NCBI GenBank assembly: GCA_013373635.1
Contig: JABXHN010000022.1
Location: forward strand, 186,001 to 250,000
Direction: 5' to 3'
DNA: 64,000 bases
Origin: Flavobacteriaceae bacterium
GTDB lineage: Bacteria > Bacteroidota > Bacteroidia > Flavobacteriales > Flavobacteriaceae
In this document: positions 624 through 54,599 of the stretch, piece by piece
How positions within the stretch are numbered: the stretch's first letter is position 1
Layout: every line of letters starts with the position of its first letter
Notes under the pieces: model-generated
The model's input: only the letters and a program-made list of their open reading frames with translations
Told to the model about the DNA's origin: nothing
Databases searched by the model: none
Program-made: the position numbers and the translations under genes

Positions 624-1781
624 TTATTCAATTCTATTCTCATCAAAGGCAGAAGGTAATAATTTTGGAATAAGGCGTATAAATATAGGGAGTAATAAGG
701 CTCCACCGGGAAGCATAAATATTGCTAGGGAAGGGATGCTCTTAGCAATATCCAAAGCGTATTGTTGCACTTTTTTCTGTTCTTCAGGACTGAGATCTCT
801 ATGAGTTGAATGACTTAGAAGCAATAGTAACTCCTTTGAATTTTTTAGTTCTCGAATAATGCGCTTGGAATTTCTCTTAATGAGTCGTTCAGCTAAATTG
901 TTGATCTTGGACTGAAATCGTTGAATGGTATTCGAAGATTTTAAAGAACTTAGTTTTGATTCAAAATTCTCGGAGAATCGTTTGGCATTCTTTATACATA
1001 GTTGATAATCATCTGAGTCGAGATGTAATTCAGAGCTTATTGTTTGCAAATAGGATTGATGAGGTTCCTCAAGTTCGTTCTGTGCGTAAAGAATAATCGA
1101 ACACAAATCGAGAATATAGCGGTGATACCAATAGGTGTCTGTCTCAATACTATCAGCATCGTAATTTTCAAAGACTGTATCTGCTCCTAAATGAGCCAAA
1201 AGAATCCCGTAGAGCTGGTGTTTGGAGTCAGGTATTTGGAATTGTGTTTTTTTTCCATAGAGAATCGTCAACTCTTTTAAATAACCATAGGAATCGTCAA
1301 AATCAGTTTTATTTCTGAGAAAGTGATAAAAGCAAATGGGATCATAAATTACAAATGCATTGTAGAAATTGGAGCTGAACAATTGTGTCAAACGATTGTT
1401 CCCATTGTTGATTCTCTTATCGATAACCTCTTCTAGTGTGGTAGATGGGTTTTTTGACAAGAGATTTTTCCAAAAACTAGACGCCTTTACCAAGGGTTGG
1501 TAAAATTTGAGAACATCTTCTAAAAAGAGATTGTAATCTCTAGTCTTAGAGTATTGGGCATGCACTTCACAAAGTGCGTGTAAGAGATTGAGTTTCGCAA
1601 TCTCATCAGCTAATAATTCATGGGAAGTCGTATAGTTTTCTACGGTTTTAAAATGCAAACCATACACAAATCCTACGTCTGTCAATTGTTGGTATAAGTC
1701 TTTGAATTCTAAAATCGGATTTGATTTAGATTCAAAGACCACACCAAATTTTTTAACCCATGAAGAGGAAGAAGGATTCAT
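624..1781 (-). CDS. LETM1-related protein
   Basis: A 385-residue protein that is mostly alpha-helical and charged. It ends in a LETM1-like segment (about residues 348-379) with a hydrophobic stretch around IFMLPGGALLLPIFIRLIP. LETM1 in mitochondria is an inner-membrane protein tied to cation/proton exchange and ribosome binding. Bacteroidota homologues are usually called LETM1-related biofilm-associated proteins and have no proven function. Only one credible hydrophobic segment is visible and there is no signal peptide, so a cytoplasmic or membrane-associated location is inferred. The MNPS start fits my recollection of the family. The start codon follows a terminator-like hairpin almost directly. 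Confidence 0.75.
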   Translation of the reverse strand: MNPSSSSWVKKFGVVFESKSNPILEFKDLYQQLTDVGFVYGLHFKTVENYTTSHELLADEIAKLNLLHALCEVHAQYSKTRDYNLFLEDVLKFYQPLVKASSFWKNLLSKNPSTTLEEVIDKRINNGNNRLTQLFSSNFYNAFVIYDPICFYHFLRNKTDFDDSYGYLKELTILYGKKTQFQIPDSKHQLYGILLAHLGADTVFENYDADSIETDTYWYHRYILDLCSIILYAQNELEEPHQSYLQTISSELHLDSDDYQLCIKNAKRFSENFESKLSSLKSSNTIQRFQSKINNLAERLIKRNSKRIIRELKNSKELLLLLSHSTHRDLSPEEQKKVQQYALDIAKSIPSLAIFMLPGGALLLPIFIRLIPKLLPSAFDENRIE

Positions 1782-2396: not shown

Positions 2397-4481
2397 TTAT
2401 TCTTCTATTAATACCCATGCACCTTTAAAACCTTGATTGTTTAATAAATCAATTGCAGCTTTGGTATCGGTGCGATTTTTAAAATGTGCTGCACTTACTC
2501 GATAAGAGTTATTTGAATTAAGAATATAGGCATTTACAAATCCCATTTTTCTTAGATTTTCAGTAATTGAAACGGCCCTTTTTGAATCCGTAGTTGAGGC
2601 GGCAATTACATGGTGAATTGGCCTGTAAGGAATCGAATTTGAATTTCTTTCAAAGATAGAATCTTCTTCAACAACCGCTACTTCAACCTCAGGTTGAACA
2701 GCCTCAATTAGATCATTATTTAAAGGAACTTGAACAATTGAATCAACAGGTATAGTTAAATTTATTTCCTTCTCTGAAATGGTGTCATTTTTAATTTCCT
2801 GATCTACAGTTTCAGGTTTTTGAATTGGAATTTGATTTTCAATTTCATCCTCAGATTCTAAAGTCAGATCTTTCTCATAATCGATCAATGTCGTATCAAA
2901 AATCCATGCGTATTTAAATCCATCGGCTTTTAACTTCAGGATTAATTTTTGTAAATCTTCTATTTTTTTCGATTTGGCAGCACTTATACGATATACTCCT
3001 CCATAAGGTTTTTTAAATACATAGGCACTTTTGTATCCTTTCGAACGAAGTGCTTCAATGTGTTTTGGAGCAAATCCAAGTTCTGTTACAGCGCCAATAA
3101 CTAAGTGATAAATTGGAGATTTAAATTTTCTTTTACCAGCTGTCTCTCTTTGAGCACTGATTCTCTGTAGGAGTTCAGTATCTTGATTTTGAATATTGAC
3201 AATATCAGAATTCATCAAATTGGAATCTTTGTCAAAAACTTGATCTACTTCTTTAGTTTCATTCTGTATTGAATCAGTTTGAGAATCGTCAACTTTTATT
3301 TGATCAGCACCCTTCTTAATTGGAACTAATTCAACAGTAGAAATAGTAACAGTAGTACTTAAAATCCATGGTTTGTTGTATCCGATAGATGCTAATTTTT
3401 GACGCGTGAGTTCTGCTTTGCTCTTATCTTTGAAATCCTGAGCACTTATTCTGTAGTATCCATTTTGAGAAATTTCTAAAACCTGACCATTAAAACCATC
3501 TCTTTTAAGTCTATTTAATGATTTAACTGTACTCACTTGGTCTTTGTGTGCAGCAGTAATTACAAAATGTCGCAACTCATTCGAATAGACAATTACTTCT
3601 TCTAATTCGATTTCATCAGAAATACTTTTTTCAAACTCTTGTTTTGTATTCTCTTCTCGATCAAAGTGGTGGTCATCGCCTATTAGATTATCCACTTTTT
3701 CGTTGGTATCGAAAATAATTTCTTTAGGCGCTTCAATTACTTTTTGGATTGGTAAAGGTGTTTCAATGGATGAGGAATCAGAAGTGGTTTTTTTATTGTT
3801 TCTCCAGGAAGTATTTATATAAAGTCTCGAAACAATAAATTGGTTGGTATTCCCTTTTAATCCCTCGTCAATCAATCCCAATTCAAATTTAAAATCTTTT
3901 GAGAGGGGGCTTCCAATGGATAAGTTGTTTCGCATGTTGACTAATTTATCTTGTTGCACAACATAAAAAGCTTCACTAAATGCCTTTACATATACTTTTT
4001 TGCTAATATTTTTTACCAGCGTTAGTTGAAAGCGCAGTCGATTATCTCTAAGTGTTTCAGGACTGTTGTTAGGATAAATCCATCTTCTCTCATGACGAAA
4101 TCTTGTTTTAATTTTAAGAGAAGATGGAGTTCCAAAATCGAATTGGTATTCGTCATATATCCATCGTTGTAATTGAAAGTTTTCAATTAACGATTTATCC
4201 ATTGGCTTTTTGTCAACAGTTGAAAATCCTAAATGAAATTTAAAGTGTTTCGTGAATTGATATTCAAATGCTGATCGTACCAAAAACTGCTTTTGATTTC
4301 CAAAAACTTCATAATTATGAAATCTGGCTTGCGTGAAAAAAAACAGTTTTTTTCCAATTTCAGGATTTAAAATGAAGATCTCATAACTTCCAAGTGAAGA
4401 ATCAGTTTGCTGTGCAAAAGATTTCATTCCAGAACCTAAGATTAGAATCAGTGAAAGTAAGATGAGAAAATTTCGATTCAT
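2397..4481 (-). CDS. DUF2490 beta-barrel fused to three SPOR domains
   Basis: A 694-residue secreted protein with a Sec signal (residues 1-23, ending SFAQ). Residues about 25-230 resemble DUF2490, a Bacteroidota outer-membrane-barrel-like family, with alternating aromatic strands. Three SPOR-like repeats follow, at about 304-375, 456-530 and 621-694. Each starts with a HxVI-type strand, has a central YRISA or YRVSA motif and ends with a glycine-Trp pattern such as FKGAWVL. Acidic, low-complexity linkers separate the repeats. SPOR domains bind denuded peptidoglycan, so the protein may link the outer membrane to the cell wall; this is inference. Its ATG overlaps the stop of the propeller gene (TAATG), which suggests coupled translation. 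Confidence 0.7.
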   Translation of the reverse strand: MNRNFLILLSLILILGSGMKSFAQQTDSSLGSYEIFILNPEIGKKLFFFTQARFHNYEVFGNQKQFLVRSAFEYQFTKHFKFHLGFSTVDKKPMDKSLIENFQLQRWIYDEYQFDFGTPSSLKIKTRFRHERRWIYPNNSPETLRDNRLRFQLTLVKNISKKVYVKAFSEAFYVVQQDKLVNMRNNLSIGSPLSKDFKFELGLIDEGLKGNTNQFIVSRLYINTSWRNNKKTTSDSSSIETPLPIQKVIEAPKEIIFDTNEKVDNLIGDDHHFDREENTKQEFEKSISDEIELEEVIVYSNELRHFVITAAHKDQVSTVKSLNRLKRDGFNGQVLEISQNGYYRISAQDFKDKSKAELTRQKLASIGYNKPWILSTTVTISTVELVPIKKGADQIKVDDSQTDSIQNETKEVDQVFDKDSNLMNSDIVNIQNQDTELLQRISAQRETAGKRKFKSPIYHLVIGAVTELGFAPKHIEALRSKGYKSAYVFKKPYGGVYRISAAKSKKIEDLQKLILKLKADGFKYAWIFDTTLIDYEKDLTLESEDEIENQIPIQKPETVDQEIKNDTISEKEINLTIPVDSIVQVPLNNDLIEAVQPEVEVAVVEEDSIFERNSNSIPYRPIHHVIAASTTDSKRAVSITENLRKMGFVNAYILNSNNSYRVSAAHFKNRTDTKAAIDLLNNQGFKGAWVLIEE

Positions 4482-7400
4482 TAAAAAATATTGACTTCTT
4501 TAAAAGGGGACAAGGTTGCGACATCAAACTGATCTCTATAGGTTCTCCAATCTTCTTTGAAAAATCCATTAACCTCACCTAAGGTAATGTTTAATGCACT
4601 TTTAGCAAAATTTATTAGTCTTAATTCATTGTCATTAATTCCTGTTTTTCTTGACTGAACATAACTATTTGCTAAATTTAATCGCTGCATCACTGTGACT
4701 TCAGGATTCCTAGTAATCCCTTGTCGTTTATCTACTTTACCGATAAATTCTGCAACTAAATTCTCAATTTTCTTGCTGATTTTCTCACTAGATTCAATGA
4801 GATCTTTGTTGGCAGTTTCATCAATTTTCTTTAGATCTGCAGCTATTTTGTCAGCGATGTTTTTACTCTCAATCAATTGTTTTACTGCATCAGCAGCTTT
4901 TTGAATCGAAGATTGTAAGTCTTTAGCGTAGGTGTAAACTTCTTCTAAATCACTTCTTTTGACTTCAATTCTTGGATCTGATTTTACTTCGATGGAAGTA
5001 GCATACTTCTGATCACCATAGGTGAGCTCTATTTTATAAGTTCCAGGCAAGACACTCATGCCTCCGCGCTCTCTGTTGTTCTTGCGAATTGTTCTCGAGG
5101 GGTAATCAGCACCTTTTTCATCCATTCTCCAGTAAATTCTATGGAATCCTGCTTTTTTTGGTTTTTTATAAGATAGGGTACGAATCAATCGATCTCCATC
5201 GTAGAAGTTAAAAAAGATGGAATCCTTTTTTGATTTTTTAGAATCTGTTGCCTCTGATTTAGTGTTTTCCTCTTTTTTGTCAGCTACCTTTTCTTTAATT
5301 TCAGAAGGGTTGAGGTAATAGGTAATCATGGCTCCTGATCTTCTGTTTTCTCCCTGATACATTGCATCGGCACCAAATCGACTACCAGTGGGTTGTTGAT
5401 AAGCAGCTTGATAGGCTATTGGTGGTTCAAACAATGCGACCTCTTGTTTTAGGATTTCTGCGTTTTTAGCAACAGCTCTAAGAGGTCTGATGTCGTCTAA
5501 AACCCAAGCAGCTCTACCAAAGGTTCCAATAACCAAGTCTTGTTCTCTTGGGTGAATCATTAAATCCTTTGTAGATACCGTAGGAAACTCATGGGTCCAT
5601 TTGCTCCAGTCTTCTCCTGCATTAATTGATACATACAACCCATCATCAGTTCCCAAGAACATTAAATTTGGATTCTCTGAATCTTCGAGTATCGCAAGTG
5701 CATAACTTTGAACGTCGCTAGAATCTACAATGCGTTTCCAGGTCTTACCATAGTTAGTAGTGCGGTATACATAAGGTTCATAATTAAACCTTCTGTAGTC
5801 GTTAGCCACTAAGAGTGCTTCGCCTTTGTTGTTATGAGAAGCTTTAATCTGAGGAATCCAACTTCCTTCTGGTAGTCCCTTAATGTTTTTGGTCACATCA
5901 ATCCAGTTGGTTCCACCATCGATGGTATAGTGGACTTTTCCATCGTCAGATCCACTCCAAAGCATGTCTTTTTCTACTGGTGAAGGTTCGATCACAATTA
6001 TAGTGGTGTGATTTTCAGCACCAGTGGCATCCATCGTAAGACCTCCACTTTCGCTTTGTTTTTGCTTTTGTGGATCATTGGTAGTTAAATCAGGAGAAAT
6101 AACCTTCCAATTGAGTCCTTTGTCGGTACTCTTGTGAACAAACTGAGATCCAAAATACACGGTGCTTGAATCAAATGGATCTTGAGCAATCGCTGCATTC
6201 CAGTTAAATCTAAGAACGGTATTTTCATCCTCTGGAGTCGGTCTAACGGAATAGTTGTTTCCAGTTTTCCAATCGTATCTCGATACATATCCTTGTTGGC
6301 TCATCGAATATCCGTATTGTGAGTTTTCTAGATCTGGAACGACATCAAAACCATCACCAAAGGAGATTTCTTGCCAATAACTGTTTCTAATTCCCTGGTC
6401 TTTCCAAACATAAGCAGGCCCTCTCCAAGATCCGTTGTCTTGCATACCACCGTAAACATTATATGGAAATTCCATGTCGACATTGATATGATAGAATTGT
6501 GCAACGGGGATATTTCCAACAAAACGCCATGATTTACCACCATCGCGCGTAATATTCATTCCACCATCATTTCCATCGAACATCAATTTTCCGTTTTTAG
6601 GATGTATCCACCAGGCGTGATGATCTGGGTGAACACCATTGTCTACACCATAGGCAGGCATGAGTTCTGTGAAATTCTTTCCACCGTCTTCAGAGACGTT
6701 CACATAAGTAAATACCGAATACACACGATTTTCATTCTGTGGATCTACAAAAATGTCAGAGTAGTAGAAAGGGCGATTTCCTATATCGCTTTTGTTGTTG
6801 ATCATTTTCCAAGAATGACCACCGTCAAAAGATTTGTAGAGTGCATTTTTCTTAGCTTCAACTAATGCATAGATGATGTTGGGATCACTGTTGGCGATTG
6901 CGAGTCCAATTCTACCGAGATCTCCTTTAGGTAATCCATCCTCAGAACTCACTTTTTTCCAGTGTTCTCCACCGTCATAAGTAATGTGAATTCCAGATCC
7001 TGGTCCTCCTGAATTAAAGAACCAAGGGTCTCTTTTGTGCTCCCACATCGCTACCACTAATTTGTTGTGATTGCTAGGATCCATCACCATATCAGCAACT
7101 CCGGTTTTATTATTTGCAAATAGAATTTGTTTCCAAGATTTACCACCATCAGTGGTTTTGTAAACACCTCGTTCAGGGTGTTCACCCCATGGAGATCCAA
7201 TAGCTCCCACGTAAACAGTATTTGAATCCGTTGGATCTATAATGATTCTATGAATATGTCTTGTTTTTTCTAATCCCATCGATTGCCAGGTTCTACCGCC
7301 ATCGAGTGATCTATAAACTCCAAAACCACCGTTGAGACTATTTCTTGGATTTCCTTCACCAGTTCCAACCCAAACTACCGAAGGGTTAGATTGGTCAATT

Positions 7401-7672
7401 GCTACAGCTCCAATCGATGCCGTAAGCTCTTTGGTAAATACAGGCTCCCATTTAATTCCTCCTGAGGTAGATTTCCAAAGCCCTCCAGAAGCTGTTCCAG
7501 CATACATGATTTCAGGGTTGTCGTAAACGGCATCTAAAGCAGTGACACGACCACTCATTCCTGCTGGTCCTATGTTTCTAGGTTTTAGGTCTTGCATGAG
7601 CTTCATGTCAAGCGTTTGACCTATTGCAATACTACTTAATAAACTAAGGGTGAGAATTAATAACTTTTTCAT
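4481..7672 (-). CDS. Secreted Asp-box beta-propeller protein (VPS10/sortilin-like)
   Basis: A 1063-residue protein with a Sec signal (IAIGQ). Roughly eleven Asp-box/BNR motifs of the form S-x-D-G-G-x-x-W are scattered over residues 60-690 (for example RSLDGGRTW, KTTDGGKSW, KSFDGGHSW, YTIDGGTNW). This is typical of the sortilin/VPS10-type propeller proteins that databases call glycosyl hydrolases. No sialidase Arg triad or acid residues can be recognised, so enzymatic activity is doubtful. The C-terminal third (about 760-1063) holds a beta-sandwich-like stretch and then a helical, Lys-rich segment. It follows the M1 peptidase gene by 5 bases and overlaps the SPOR gene by one base. A role in peptide or glycan binding outside the cell is inferred. 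Confidence 0.82.
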   Translation of the reverse strand: MKKLLILTLSLLSSIAIGQTLDMKLMQDLKPRNIGPAGMSGRVTALDAVYDNPEIMYAGTASGGLWKSTSGGIKWEPVFTKELTASIGAVAIDQSNPSVVWVGTGEGNPRNSLNGGFGVYRSLDGGRTWQSMGLEKTRHIHRIIIDPTDSNTVYVGAIGSPWGEHPERGVYKTTDGGKSWKQILFANNKTGVADMVMDPSNHNKLVVAMWEHKRDPWFFNSGGPGSGIHITYDGGEHWKKVSSEDGLPKGDLGRIGLAIANSDPNIIYALVEAKKNALYKSFDGGHSWKMINNKSDIGNRPFYYSDIFVDPQNENRVYSVFTYVNVSEDGGKNFTELMPAYGVDNGVHPDHHAWWIHPKNGKLMFDGNDGGMNITRDGGKSWRFVGNIPVAQFYHINVDMEFPYNVYGGMQDNGSWRGPAYVWKDQGIRNSYWQEISFGDGFDVVPDLENSQYGYSMSQQGYVSRYDWKTGNNYSVRPTPEDENTVLRFNWNAAIAQDPFDSSTVYFGSQFVHKSTDKGLNWKVISPDLTTNDPQKQKQSESGGLTMDATGAENHTTIIVIEPSPVEKDMLWSGSDDGKVHYTIDGGTNWIDVTKNIKGLPEGSWIPQIKASHNNKGEALLVANDYRRFNYEPYVYRTTNYGKTWKRIVDSSDVQSYALAILEDSENPNLMFLGTDDGLYVSINAGEDWSKWTHEFPTVSTKDLMIHPREQDLVIGTFGRAAWVLDDIRPLRAVAKNAEILKQEVALFEPPIAYQAAYQQPTGSRFGADAMYQGENRRSGAMITYYLNPSEIKEKVADKKEENTKSEATDSKKSKKDSIFFNFYDGDRLIRTLSYKKPKKAGFHRIYWRMDEKGADYPSRTIRKNNRERGGMSVLPGTYKIELTYGDQKYATSIEVKSDPRIEVKRSDLEEVYTYAKDLQSSIQKAADAVKQLIESKNIADKIAADLKKIDETANKDLIESSEKISKKIENLVAEFIGKVDKRQGITRNPEVTVMQRLNLANSYVQSRKTGINDNELRLINFAKSALNITLGEVNGFFKEDWRTYRDQFDVATLSPFKEVNIF

Positions 7673-7677
7673 TGGTA

Positions 7678-9291
7678 TTAGTTTTTTAGGGTGATATAGT
7701 AATCTTCAACAGTTTTAACTGTAGCTTTTTTTGAATTTGTTGGAATTTGTTTCCATTTTGTAGAACCTTCTAATCTGATAAGTTTACCATCGATTTCAAG
7801 ATCAAAAGGCATTTGAAATTGATCGATTACATTGTTAAATCGATAATAGAGGGTTTTCTTTTCTTGTTTGAGTTCTAATTCAGGAATTTGAACGGTTCTG
7901 AGGTATTGATCAAAGAATGAGCTTAAATCAATTCCCGAATGCTTAATGATATAGGACTCGATTTGAGCAGTCGTAACGGTCTGATGGTAAAATTCTTCGT
8001 TTAAGCCTCTAAGGATGGTTCTCCATTGATCGTCATTGCCAATCATCGTTCGTATCATATGAAGAATATTAGCTCCTTTGTAATACATATCTCCAGAACC
8101 TTCGGAGTTAACGTCATAGGTCCCTATGATAGGAATGTCATTTTGAATACGCTTTCGAGTTCCAATCACATATGCTCTTGCTGCTTCTTTTGAAAAGTGG
8201 TAATTGAGATAAAGGTTTTCACTATAAGCTGTAAAACCTTCATGAATCCACATGTCAGCAGCGTCTTTATAAGTGATATTGTTGGCAAACCACTCGTGAC
8301 CAGCCTCGTGAATGATGATAAAATCAAATTTTAACCCCCATCCTGTTCCTGATAAATCAGAACCTAGATATCCATTTTCAAACTTATTTCCATAGGTGAC
8401 AGAACTCTGGTGTTCCATTCCCAAATAGGGAACCTGAACTAATTTAAAACCATCTTCGTAAAAAGGGTAGGGTCCAAACCAATGTTCAAATGCTTCGAGC
8501 ATCATACTGGTTTGTGCAAATTGTTTTTTTGCTTTTTCAAGATCCTCTTTCAATACGAAATAATCCACTTTTAAAGGTCCTTTTTCACCTTGATAGGTTT
8601 CTCCAAAATGAGTGTAGTCTCCGATATTAACGTTGACTCCATAATTATTGATAGGGTTATTGACCTCCCAAGTGTAGGTGGACCAATCAGCATTTTCTTC
8701 AGTATTGATGAGTTGTCCATTAGAGACGTCCATCAAATGACTGGGGGTTGTAACACTGATGGTCATATGTTCTGCCTCATCGTACATATGGTCTTTACAG
8801 GGCCACCATACAGAGGCTCCAAGGCCTTGACAAGAAGTCGCGACAAATGAATTTCCATTAGAGTCCTCACTCCATGAAAACCCTCCATCCCAAGGTGCTC
8901 TAACGGCAACTTTTGGATTTCCAGAAAAGTAAACAGTTATTGAATTTTGATCACCGATTGATTGTTCTTTCTCTAACGTAATATAATGCGCATTTCCATC
9001 GTGTTCAATTAAAAGTTGCTTGCCATCCCTTATAACAGAATCAATTTTCATCGGTTCTTGTAAGTCAATTTGCATACGTTGATGCTTTGATACTACCGTA
9101 TAGGAAATGGTATTGCTTCCTTGAATGTATTTTTGATCTGGGTTGACCTTAACTTTTAAATCATAGTCATTTAAATCCCACCAACTGCGCTCTGGAGTGA
9201 TACTTCCTCTGATTGAATCTTGATGGGTAAAGGTCTGAGCGGTACCAAATAGGCTCAACATGCTCAGAACTAAATTGATCAATAGTTTCAT
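7678..9291 (-). CDS. M1 family metallo-aminopeptidase, secreted
   Basis: A 537-residue zinc aminopeptidase with a Sec signal (FGTAQ). It carries the substrate-binding GMEHQ (291-295), a variant of GAMEN, and the zinc site HEAGH (328-332) with the third ligand Glu351 eighteen residues later. Those are the M1 hallmarks. The protein is shorter than PepN and consists of the N-terminal beta domain and the catalytic domain, with a short C-terminal part. It removes N-terminal residues from peptides, presumably in the periplasm. Its ATG overlaps the stop codon of the upstream M28 peptidase gene (TAATG), so both peptidases should be made together. Confidence 0.93.
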   Translation of the reverse strand: MKLLINLVLSMLSLFGTAQTFTHQDSIRGSITPERSWWDLNDYDLKVKVNPDQKYIQGSNTISYTVVSKHQRMQIDLQEPMKIDSVIRDGKQLLIEHDGNAHYITLEKEQSIGDQNSITVYFSGNPKVAVRAPWDGGFSWSEDSNGNSFVATSCQGLGASVWWPCKDHMYDEAEHMTISVTTPSHLMDVSNGQLINTEENADWSTYTWEVNNPINNYGVNVNIGDYTHFGETYQGEKGPLKVDYFVLKEDLEKAKKQFAQTSMMLEAFEHWFGPYPFYEDGFKLVQVPYLGMEHQSSVTYGNKFENGYLGSDLSGTGWGLKFDFIIIHEAGHEWFANNITYKDAADMWIHEGFTAYSENLYLNYHFSKEAARAYVIGTRKRIQNDIPIIGTYDVNSEGSGDMYYKGANILHMIRTMIGNDDQWRTILRGLNEEFYHQTVTTAQIESYIIKHSGIDLSSFFDQYLRTVQIPELELKQEKKTLYYRFNNVIDQFQMPFDLEIDGKLIRLEGSTKWKQIPTNSKKATVKTVEDYYITLKN

Positions 9292-10619
9292 TATCTGATA
9301 ATTTTATTGGGGAATACCACTGGACTCTCATGTCCATCAGCTCCTACAGCTGCGACTCCGAAGAAATAATTATCGATGACAATACCTTTTAAGGTGTGTT
9401 TGGTGTCTTGTGTATAAAAAGAATGATCCCATGTAGGAGAGGTGGTATCTCTCCAATAGACTTTGTAACCTTTAGCTCCATCAACTTCACTCCACTCCAA
9501 TCGAGCATCGGCTTCGACGATTCCCCCAATCCCTAATGTAGTTGGAGCAGGAGGAGCCCATGCCAAAGAGGCTAAGTTGATCGCATTTACGGCTGTGAGC
9601 TTAGCGGCATATTCAAAATTGACATGTTCAAAAGTATCTCCGTAATTAATTCCATTTTCTGTTCTAATATCTTGGTGTTGTTGGGTGTAATTTTCATGCG
9701 CTTCCATAATACGAATCCCCGCAAAACCAGCATCGTTAAAAGGTCTGTGGTGTCCACCACGTCCAAAACGATCCAAGCGATAAATCATCATAGGATTCAT
9801 ACTTGGCATATAAGTTTTGACGTTGTGATGTACATAACGAGCTAATTGTCTGGATATTCCATCGACTTCTCCTCCGTAAAATCGTCTTGATTTTCGAGCT
9901 TGTTCGGATTCAGTTGGAGGAACTGGTTCAGAAAAGATTCTAAAATCAACATTACTGATCGTACCATCTACTCCTTTGATATTTCCAATCATATCATTGT
10001 TGAGAATACCGATGATATCCCATCCTTTTTCTTTGGCATAAGCTGCTAGACCTTTTCCGCCATAAAGCCCTTGTTCTTCTCCAGATAGTCCCACAAAAAT
10101 GATGGAGTTTTCAAAACTGTATTTGGAGAGTATTCGCGCAGCTTCAATAGTCCCAGCCATACCCGACGCATTGTCATTCGCTCCAGGTGAATCTGAGGTA
10201 TAATCATTTGGATCACTGACTCTTGAATCAATATCGCCACTCATAATGACATAGCGATTGGGATATTTGGTTCCTCTTTTGATAGCGACAATATTGACAA
10301 TATCAACATCTTTAACAATTCTTGCCCCATCACCTTTCGGTGTAAAGTTGTGTTGCTCAAAAACCTCTAAACAGTTATTGCAATCCTTAGAAATTCTATT
10401 GAATTCTGCTTTGATCCAACGACGAGCTGCACCAATTCCTCGCTTTTCTGAGATGGTATCAGATAAGGTGTGTCTGGTTCCAAAATCAACTAAAGTTTTT
10501 ACAGTCGATTTAATACGATCAGGCGATACATCATTGATGATATCGTACATTCTAGAATCGGTTTGAGCATAAGAAAAGGCTGTAACTATCAGCGCTATAA
10601 ATAAAGTAAAGGGTTTCAT
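9291..10619 (-). CDS. M28 family metallopeptidase with C-terminal FN3-like domain
   Basis: A 442-residue secreted peptidase (Sec signal ending FSYAQ). The M28 core shows SPGANDNASG (Asp149), GLSGEEQG (Glu181/182) and NNDMIGN (Asp209), and a late GGHHRPF may give the last His ligand. The first zinc ligand, normally the His of a GHYDS-type motif, reads GDIDS here (Asp129-Ile-Asp131). Residues about 355-442 look like a fibronectin type III domain (LEWSEVDGAKGYKVYW). It begins the operon of secreted proteins. The aminopeptidase or exopeptidase role follows from the family; the effect of the ligand change is unknown. Confidence 0.88.
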   Translation of the reverse strand: MKPFTLFIALIVTAFSYAQTDSRMYDIINDVSPDRIKSTVKTLVDFGTRHTLSDTISEKRGIGAARRWIKAEFNRISKDCNNCLEVFEQHNFTPKGDGARIVKDVDIVNIVAIKRGTKYPNRYVIMSGDIDSRVSDPNDYTSDSPGANDNASGMAGTIEAARILSKYSFENSIIFVGLSGEEQGLYGGKGLAAYAKEKGWDIIGILNNDMIGNIKGVDGTISNVDFRIFSEPVPPTESEQARKSRRFYGGEVDGISRQLARYVHHNVKTYMPSMNPMMIYRLDRFGRGGHHRPFNDAGFAGIRIMEAHENYTQQHQDIRTENGINYGDTFEHVNFEYAAKLTAVNAINLASLAWAPPAPTTLGIGGIVEADARLEWSEVDGAKGYKVYWRDTTSPTWDHSFYTQDTKHTLKGIVIDNYFFGVAAVGADGHESPVVFPNKIIR

Positions 10620-52952: not shown

Positions 52953-54599
52953 TTAATTGTGTAATAGTACAATAGTAAAAGGACTGTCAATGGTTACGCT
53001 TCCATTAGAAACGACTGCAGTACTTCCTGAGTAATCATCGGTTAGAGTTTCGCCTTCCTCAAATACAGATCCAACCGAAATTGTTTTTACTCCAGTTGAA
53101 AGATCTAATCCAACAACAACTTTGTCATTGTCGAGTATTCTACTAAAGCTATAAGGGGACTCAGAAATCATCTTATGTCTACCAGCTCCTACTGCAGGGT
53201 GTTTTGCTCTAAATTGACCTAACTTTTGCCAATGGAAGAGATTTGCTTGAACAGAAGCATCATTTGCAATAGCTTCCCAGTTCATATTCGATCTCAAATT
53301 AGCATCACCATTCGCTCCCTCAACCATCAGCGGCCTATTGGATTCATCGCCATAATATATTTGTGAAGCTCCAGGAGTGAGTAGGAGAACATTTGCAGCC
53401 TTATATCCATTGCTTCGCTCTCTGTCAAAAGGTGCGCCATCATCGTGTGAAGTAAGATAGTTTAACACGCTTTTTCCTTTGAGTTGACTGTTTAGAATTC
53501 CGTCGTATTTAGAGAAGATTTCTTCGTAACTTCTTTGTGCAGCATCGTATTTAATTTCAAAGTTGATCAGGCTATTAAAGCCATGTTTATAGTAATCGAC
53601 AGTTTGATCTCCAAAAGAATACGCTCTACCTGAAGAGATTCCATATCCGTATACTTCACCAACCATATAAAATAAATTGTCATCCAATACCTGATCTGGA
53701 TGGTTTTGTTTCCACAAATCAAAAGAGTATTGAGCTTCATCTCCTAAGAGGGACCAAACCCATTCCGAAGCGTGTTTTACGGTATCTACTCTAAATCCAT
53801 CAACACCTAATTCTTTTACATAATCAGTTAGCCATTTAACTATATAAGCCGAAGGTGTTTTTGCGTAATTTGTTCTTGTAAAGAATTCATCCAATTCTTT
53901 GACTTCTTGATCGTATCGACCTTCACTCATCCATTTCTCAACAAGTAGTTCGGGTAATTCAACTGCTTGATCTTCATTTTCAGTGATCACATCTGGAAGA
54001 TTTTTCACAAGGGTACAGGCAGTAGTCCCATCATAGGATGAAAAGTCACAAGGAGGTCCTGTTCGAACCCAATCTGAAGGCCATACGGGATCCATCTCTG
54101 TAACAGGTCCTGTGTGATTGACAACAACGTCTAAAATGACTCTGATCCCTCTTTGGTGGGCTTTATCGACAAGATCTTTTAAATCTTCTTGTGTTCCAAA
54201 ATTAGGATCTAATACTGTCCAATCTTTAGCCCAATAACCGTGATAAGCATACGTATTACCCGTTCCTTCATCCGTTGAATCGTGAATTTGTTCCACAACT
54301 GGAGTAAACCATATCGCATTAACTCCCAAGTCCGTAAAATAACCTTGCTCAATTTTTTGGGTAATCCCTTTGATATCTCCACCTTCAAAACCTCTTAATA
54401 CTGAAGTTTCTTTAGTTCTGTTAAAATTTATGTCATTAGAAGTATCAGCATTATTGAATCGATCTGTCAATAAGAAGTATATGTTAGCAGCTTCCCATAG
54501 AAAAGGTGAATCCATAGAGTTGATTTGATTTTTTGAATTGTTTTGACATCCCAATAGCATTAAAATGAATGCTGTTGAAAAAAGAGCCATCTTTTTCAT
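52953..54599 (-). CDS. GH13 alpha-amylase family lipoprotein
   Basis: A 548-residue glycoside hydrolase that acts on alpha-glucans. A lipoprotein signal ends at MLLGC. The GH13 conserved regions are seen in order: DVVVNH (region I), DGFRVDTVKH with the nucleophile Asp (II), VGEVYG with the acid Glu (III) and YLTSHDDG with the third carboxylate (IV). A short beta domain ends the protein. It is likely a surface or periplasmic amylase. It begins a possible unit with the helical-repeat protein and purB. Confidence 0.94.
   Translation of the reverse strand: MKKMALFSTAFILMLLGCQNNSKNQINSMDSPFLWEAANIYFLLTDRFNNADTSNDINFNRTKETSVLRGFEGGDIKGITQKIEQGYFTDLGVNAIWFTPVVEQIHDSTDEGTGNTYAYHGYWAKDWTVLDPNFGTQEDLKDLVDKAHQRGIRVILDVVVNHTGPVTEMDPVWPSDWVRTGPPCDFSSYDGTTACTLVKNLPDVITENEDQAVELPELLVEKWMSEGRYDQEVKELDEFFTRTNYAKTPSAYIVKWLTDYVKELGVDGFRVDTVKHASEWVWSLLGDEAQYSFDLWKQNHPDQVLDDNLFYMVGEVYGYGISSGRAYSFGDQTVDYYKHGFNSLINFEIKYDAAQRSYEEIFSKYDGILNSQLKGKSVLNYLTSHDDGAPFDRERSNGYKAANVLLLTPGASQIYYGDESNRPLMVEGANGDANLRSNMNWEAIANDASVQANLFHWQKLGQFRAKHPAVGAGRHKMISESPYSFSRILDNDKVVVGLDLSTGVKTISVGSVFEEGETLTDDYSGSTAVVSNGSVTIDSPFTIVLLHN

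Follow-up and report, generated by a model that had tools for sequence, protein, structure and literature searches.

A DUF2490 barrel-like protein with three SPOR domains, a possible multivalent tie between outer membrane and peptidoglycan in Flavobacteriaceae

The well-known anchors that join the outer membrane to the cell wall are OmpA-like or lipoprotein-based. If a barrel with several SPOR domains acts as a tie, it would be another way of making this connection, possibly at chosen places on the wall. As described in the available part of PMC6895207, a glutamine in strand 1 of the SPOR domain contacts the glycan in RlpA (Q270), and the same glutamine matters in FtsN and DamX, whose septal localisation is lowered by its mutation. 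This residue is strongly conserved among solved SPOR domains and is preferred, though not obligatory, in the family; many of the glycan contacts come from main-chain atoms, which enables poorly conserved SPOR domains to bind the same glycan (PMC6895207). On the barrel side, the accessible text of PMC4827864 gives DUF2490 as a putative porin family of TCDB (1.B.81) whose function is not established. In TCDB's family table (PMC4827864), SPOR is also named as one of the domains found in the alginate-export porin family 1.B.13, so a link between barrels and SPOR domains is already in print in that form. PMC9143113 (in excerpt) reports a role for PorP-like proteins in anchoring secreted surface proteins. 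In our literature search, DUF2490 and SPOR were met only in separate places and were not found discussed as parts of one protein. We likewise found no relevant account of SPOR with PorP or with flavobacterial barrels in the portions of the texts available, and nothing useful on CCDC81 with SPOR, tandem SPOR domains or SPOR in Cytophaga hutchinsonii.

Layout of the protein and identity of its domains

The gene described here lies in a 64,000-nucleotide stretch of a Flavobacteriaceae bacterium (assembly GCA_013373635.1, contig JABXHN010000022.1, positions 186,001 to 250,000), which we call the window. It is a single open frame running from ATG to TAA without an internal stop (2397-4481, minus strand; 694 aa) and encodes a signal peptide, a DUF2490 barrel-like domain and three SPOR domains. 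Both families scored over their Pfam cut-offs in the whole protein: DUF2490 (PF10677) at residues 34-204 (E = 1.7e-17, 64.2 bits vs a cut-off of 29.8) and SPOR (PF05036) in three stretches (E = 4.6e-17, 62.6 bits vs a cut-off of 21). The first-pass annotation had proposed this combination in this order, and it was right on both counts. An assembly join or frame error was ruled out as the source of the fusion, since a 696-aa protein that is 96% identical occurs in a separate MAG (L042, 6001-8091) among neighbours identical in kind.

All parts of the gene are given here on the minus strand. The signal peptide, assigned by eye from the translation, spans residues 1-23 (MNRNFLILLSLILILGSGMKSFA; 4413-4481) and is followed by QQ; A23 and Q24 are frequent throughout the DUF2490 family alignment. 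The DUF2490 domain (residues 24-236; 3774-4412) leads into acidic linker A (residues 237-299; 3585-3773; 63 residues, pI 4.2, net charge -12) and SPOR repeat 1 (residues 300-377; 3351-3584). Linker B (residues 378-452; 3126-3350; 75 residues, pI 4.6, net charge -4) precedes SPOR repeat 2 (residues 453-532; 2886-3125), and linker C (residues 533-617; 2631-2885; 85 residues, pI 4.05, net charge -18) precedes SPOR repeat 3 (residues 618-694; 2400-2630), which forms the C-terminus. The three SPOR domains carry net charges of +6, +9 and +4, and the barrel part is likewise basic. The acidic character of the linkers had been noted beforehand, and the repeat boundaries lie close to those first drawn.

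Scanned singly with Pfam, repeats 1 and 3 exceed the SPOR cut-off of 21 bits (25.4 and 33.8 bits), and repeat 2 misses it by 0.7 bit (20.3 bits, E = 7e-4) and is therefore marginal; by these single scores, the initial assignment of all three to SPOR stands for repeats 1 and 3 and falls just short for repeat 2. As first described, the copies are strongly diverged, with pairwise identities of 24, 29 and 32% (24% between repeats 1 and 2, 32% between repeats 2 and 3). A model of repeat 3, built from six repeat sequences, has a pLDDT of 88.6 and the order E H E E H E. Its best match in the PDB was the SPOR domain of CwlC (1x60; E = 1.5e-4, TM 0.85), with no other match reaching an E below 0.001; next, among other ferredoxin-like folds, came FtsN (1uta, E = 0.009), DedD (6ztg, E = 0.022) and RlpA (6i05, E = 0.11). 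The predicted structure thus indicates that the RNP-like SPOR fold, beta-alpha-beta twice, is present in repeat 3. Chance resemblance to SPOR was ruled out by the Pfam matches and the fold, the case being weakest for repeat 2. Elsewhere in the window, a further SPOR-like match (54102-54224; 11.6 bits, E = 0.78) falls inside what reads as an alpha-amylase-type enzyme and was dismissed as chance.

In a 30-row alignment of the DUF2490 family, the window protein retains both invariant columns (R129 and R150) and differs from the 14 nearly invariant ones at W33 and Y203 only. Using a home-made scale, we found strand periodicity in a 68-row DUF2490 profile, a set that includes three identical pairs, with 22.6% of residues exceeding the 95% null (500 shuffles: mean 5.1%, maximum 17.5%). 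The signal was weak in the window sequence alone (10.4% vs 5.0%, with 33 of 500 shuffles equally high). A profile search of the PDB with DUF2490 returned nothing significant; 18 of its 19 weak matches were outer-membrane barrels or a designed barrel (best E = 0.026), of only four kinds. A model of the barrel part from two near-identical sequences was strand-rich and unreliable (pLDDT 41), and searching the PDB by sequence with the whole protein found nothing. From these sequence features, the DUF2490 part is likely an outer-membrane beta-barrel. PorP/SprF gave no match in the protein (PF11751, Pfam E up to 10; TIGR03519, NCBIfam E up to 0.01), and in a DUF2490 tree the window barrel sits on a branch of 3.5 changes per column, without a supported sister.

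Distribution, gain and selection

Surveys of related genomes recovered the DUF2490-SPOR fusion in two genomes of one genus and nowhere else in the samples. Searching with the whole protein, we obtained matches in 84 of 199 family genomes (at most the best 5 candidates per genome) and in 24 of 395 phylum genomes (best 2 candidates per genome), and in both sets only the window's own genome held the fused form. A search of 395 order genomes with the SPOR half matched 23 and contained no other frame longer than 507 aa (best 4 candidates per genome). Among 296 order genomes, the matches listed lay in frames of at most 295 aa (best 10 candidates per genome); these are strong hits, with E values of about 5.6e-35 or lower, and the window gene is not among them, so the survey bears on strong hits only. 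The DUF2490 profile matched 48 of 60 relatives, where over-cut-off frames longer than 330 aa occurred only in the window and in one genus genome (G207), and 46 of 138 phylum genomes, where the only long over-cut-off frames were that of the window and a 399-aa frame in G680. Every candidate was scored in these two DUF2490-profile searches and in a search of 120 genomes with a repeat profile. The absence of other fusions is therefore a statement about sampling, given that some searches were limited to the top candidates of each genome and that the samples overlap.

Several candidates were set aside. The G680 gene is 382 aa long and has an N-terminal extension and no SPOR domain, and a 649-aa frame in G198 corresponds to an actual gene of 232 aa. 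Sub-cut-off DUF2490 matches in the window's genome (L010 and L011; frames of about 700-820 aa) appear by eye to be other proteins, one of them resembling a TonB receptor. Viral contigs held no DUF2490 relative, and phage records gave no match.

The fusion gene sits in a compact arrangement on the minus strand. Its ATG overlaps the TAA of the upstream gene by one base (TAATG), which encodes a Sortilin-Vps10/BNR protein (1063 aa; 4481-7672), and 14 bases separate its stop from the start of a Cu/Zn superoxide dismutase gene (1813-2382) whose product has, by eye, a lipoprotein-like start. When all candidates were scored in 12 genus genomes, the full-length protein was found in two, the window's and G207 (taken as the same assembly as L042); one more gave a weak match to a stand-alone DUF2490 gene. 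In all eight other readable genus genomes (G203, G208, G205, G201, G206, G166, G204 and G200), the Sortilin-Vps10 and superoxide dismutase genes are adjacent, with no gene between them. The gap at this empty site is 10-52 bases, or 107 in G200, whose upstream frame ends early; in G199 and G202 we found no ortholog of the upstream gene. One gain is simpler than repeated exact loss in eight of eight readable relatives, and the fusion gene was therefore probably gained recently in the window's lineage rather than lost elsewhere. On a foreign origin of the gene, two measures point in different directions: its G+C content is 0.323 vs 0.368 for the window, but by distance from mean codon usage it comes only 23rd among 31 long frames. 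Seven neighbouring genes were scanned, and no division gene is among them.

Comparison with the L042 ortholog gave a dN/dS of 0.10 for the whole gene and 0.09, 0.02 and 0.09 for repeats 1, 2 and 3. Constraint on the gene is slightly looser than on four neighbouring genes (0.03-0.07), and linker B is its fastest evolving part (0.25). Values of 0.02-0.09 indicate that the SPOR repeats are maintained by purifying selection. The barrel parts of the two species differ by one amino-acid and four silent changes, and these five changes say very little about selection on the barrel. The dN/dS values bear on the reading that the protein is a common type of small DUF2490 protein, a porin or an assembly factor, whose SPOR tail is decayed or neutral. 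Repeat 2 scoring just below the SPOR cut-off and the faster evolution of linker B would fit such a tail, but the dN/dS of the repeats mostly refutes this reading and the frame is intact in both species; we regard this explanation as very improbable.

Three further features of the gene run were observed. Identity between the window (2400-10600) and L042 is uneven, at 98-100% around 3600-5200, 88-90% at 3000-3600 and 82-93% in the M1 and M28 peptidase genes, a pattern that looks like recombination tracts. Four genus genomes (L090, L092, L093 and L094) lack the M1 peptidase gene at its usual position; there, an unrelated gene of 258-266 aa lies between those for the M28 peptidase and Sortilin-Vps10. 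The same run includes a 385-aa protein (624-1781, minus strand) with a partial C-terminal LETM1-RBD match; its counterparts in seven genus relatives are 30-34% identical, and most neighbouring genes are 59-76% identical.

The glycan-contacting site and possible partners of the SPOR domains

In our alignment, the site of the glycan-contacting glutamine is occupied by I308, V461 and I626 in repeats 1, 2 and 3, so that the glutamine is absent from all three. The site is isoleucine or valine in 55 of 55 aligned domains, a set chosen by a profile seeded with 13 domains of this Gln-less subtype; the 49 domains besides the repeats of the window and L042 come from proteins of the same family, order and class. 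An Amidase_3 protein (L006) and a 126-aa SPOR protein (L002) of the window's genome retain the glutamine, by eye. Loss of the residue is therefore a trait of the subtype rather than decay of the window gene. Since the replacement runs throughout the subtype, its binding to denuded glycan is not assured. Binding may nevertheless persist without the glutamine, as many of the contacts described in the available text of PMC6895207 are made by the main chain. A second position is also informative: the arginine of a YR[IV]SA motif (R344, R498 and R661) is kept in every repeat in both species, and the column is arginine in 23 of the 55 domains, including all six repeats of the window and L042. We tentatively equate these arginines with the basic patch of FtsN (R285) and RlpA (R309), which is our own reading of the sequences.

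We built a tree of the 55 domains, based on few columns and with a bootstrap that had not settled, in which the three repeats do not cluster: repeat 1 stands beside the SPOR domain of a PorE-like protein, L075 (98/71), with no placement obtained for repeats 2 and 3. An old internal duplication with separate roles, which the first-pass annotation had suggested from the divergence of the copies, is thus not supported, and the tree leaves such a duplication neither established nor excluded.

The position of repeat 1 would suit a reading in which the SPOR domains bind a protein partner instead of glycan, the Gln-less subtype having become a docking module, with the barrel being recruited to an envelope machine such as a T9SS/PorE-type complex. 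The uniform absence of the glutamine across the 55 domains also points that way, as does the fusion of the same subtype to PorE/OmpA-like proteins and PorP/SprF barrels. However, the basic arginine is kept in all three repeats, PorE-like proteins already have an OmpA domain, and an HU-CCDC81-SPOR protein in the same genome shows the same subtype in an unrelated context. We consider docking of this kind unlikely.

Another possibility is that the three SPOR domains draw the barrel to denuded septal glycan and so aid outer-membrane constriction. SPOR domains elsewhere bind such glycan mostly by backbone contacts (PMC6895207, available part), and the Amidase_3 protein L006 has a SPOR-like end (16.7 bits, below the cut-off), so denuded glycan is probably made in this genome. 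Against the division-site preference proposed at first, the residue important for septal localisation of FtsN and DamX (PMC6895207, same part) is isoleucine or valine in every repeat. The gene is also absent from eight of eight readable genus relatives, which argues that it is no core division gene, and the neighbours scanned hold none either. A role at the division site is, in our judgement, quite unlikely.

We lean instead towards a multivalent outer membrane-to-peptidoglycan tie, the DUF2490 counterpart of a PorP/SprF-SPOR design described below, and regard it as somewhat probable. In such a tie, the protein would be exported and its DUF2490 part would form a small barrel inserted in the outer membrane, both of its ends facing the periplasm. 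A barrel with an even strand number has both ends on that side, and the SPOR tail would accordingly be periplasmic if the strand number here is even. The C-terminal chain would then extend into the periplasm, where the basic SPOR domains on their long acidic linkers would grip the peptidoglycan glycan. Linkers of 63-85 residues, if flexible, should be long enough to reach the wall, and binding at three points would be firm even if it were weak at each. We therefore favour the multivalent tie. In its favour are the Pfam matches, the fold of repeat 3, the low dN/dS of the SPOR domains, the retained arginine and basic charge of the repeats, the Amidase_3 protein, the TCDB listing of DUF2490 and the PorP/SprF proteins of like layout. 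Against it weigh the poor barrel model, the weak periodicity of the window sequence alone, the missing glutamine, the slightly looser constraint on the whole gene and its presence in two genomes only. Insertion of the barrel, the side on which the tail lies, binding to glycan and a bias towards division sites are themselves points that we infer, as is gain of the gene rather than loss.

SPOR-bearing envelope proteins and comparison with known systems

A profile of the window repeats matched 31 of 120 family genomes. Nine long-frame loci came from the repeat-profile and DUF2490 surveys, of which eight (all but L145) were scanned with Pfam. One of them, L150 (611-1894; 427 aa), combines PorP_SprF (40.5 bits, cut-off 22.3) with a C-terminal SPOR domain (29.1 bits); against the NCBIfam PorP model it scores 40.1 bits, below the cut-off of 90.55. 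A near-full-length L150-type protein was present in 6 of 299 family genomes, L150's own included (at most the best 5 candidates per genome), and the same search found no relative of L150 in the window's genome. This search yielded 20 further loci, 18 of which (all but L177 and L180) were scanned with Pfam. PorP_SprF and SPOR together exceed their cut-offs in L150, L172 (920-3064), L184 (2424-4433) and L189 (2250-4388); PorP_SprF alone does so in L174, truncated by a contig end, L179 and L181.

We also used our own SPOR profile, whose 13 seeds include domains of L150, L075 and L076, those of the window, and a single repeat from each of L172 and L189. Its scores are circular for seeds lying among the domains scored; repeat 1 of L172, repeat 1 of L189 and the domains of L152-L156, L171, L173, L175, L179, L181, L184 and L186 are non-seeds. 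With this profile, L179 and L181 each gain a SPOR domain, and three are placed in L172 (714 aa; residues 398-474, 537-613 and 635-711) and in L189 (712 aa), where Pfam reports two stretches and one, respectively. Pfam misses one domain in some PorP-SPOR relatives, with SPOR only in L152 and L153 and PorP only in L156.

Other carriers of SPOR domains were also recorded. SPOR, OmpA and PD40 all pass their Pfam cut-offs in L171, L183, L187, L188 and L190, and do not in L176, L182 and L185. L143, the sole PorE/OmpA-like locus scanned with NCBIfam, lies below the cut-offs of the PorE and CHU_0125 models. SPOR is joined to HU-CCDC81 in L003 and L149. SPOR-like C-termini found by our own profile, and not by Pfam, occur in L175 (712-2754), L186 (2323-4341) and L173 (1027-2697), whose carriers are OstA_2/LptD_N proteins and a Peptidase_M56 + TonB_C protein. 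L144 (1606-2889; 427 aa) has an N-terminal SPOR domain, a long acidic linker and a C-terminal part that is strand-rich by eye and has no Pfam match; it is perhaps a third barrel-SPOR fusion, with the order reversed.

The gain of SPOR tails by barrels of different families in Flavobacteriaceae is the wider and more interesting point. Such proteins may form a recurrent, unnamed class of connectors in the family, assembled at least twice (with DUF2490, with PorP/SprF and perhaps in L144), in which a glycan-reading domain of the division type has, in its Gln-less form, turned into a general multivalent envelope anchor; we offer this tentatively, as something a little short of an even chance. Given the reported anchoring of secreted surface proteins by PorP-like proteins (PMC9143113, in excerpt), SPOR tails on PorP-like barrels could link such surface proteins with the wall. 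As for the window gene, it is a natural experiment, being held by two genus genomes and absent at a clean site in eight relatives.

We compared the window protein with four kinds of known or related proteins. Stand-alone DUF2490 proteins (TC 1.B.81) share its domain, including R129 and R150, and are found in one to five copies per matching genome; most of their frames measure about 210-320 aa and stop after the domain, and among the over-cut-off matches listed, only those of the two fusion genomes continue into SPOR. The SPOR domains of CwlC, FtsN, DedD and RlpA are alike in fold, as judged from repeat 3, whereas the window protein has isoleucine or valine at the glutamine site and carries its three copies C-terminal to a domain of a barrel family. 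PorE/OmpA-like proteins (L075, L076, L143, L146, L147, L171, L183, L187, L188 and L190) are likewise envelope proteins with SPOR over the Pfam cut-off, and the SPOR domain of L075 is the nearest relative of repeat 1, but they have a PD40 propeller and OmpA wall-binding parts and no barrel. The PorP/SprF-SPOR proteins come closest in layout, with an N-terminal barrel family, a linker, one to three C-terminal SPOR domains and isoleucine or valine at the glutamine site, and this likeness also suggests the tether reading, which is plausible. The first-pass annotation knew of no description of the arrangement; the DUF2490-SPOR pairing itself turned up in two of the genomes sampled and in no paper located by our literature search, but its design is shared with the PorP/SprF-SPOR proteins, from which the window protein differs in its barrel family, DUF2490 in place of PorP_SprF.
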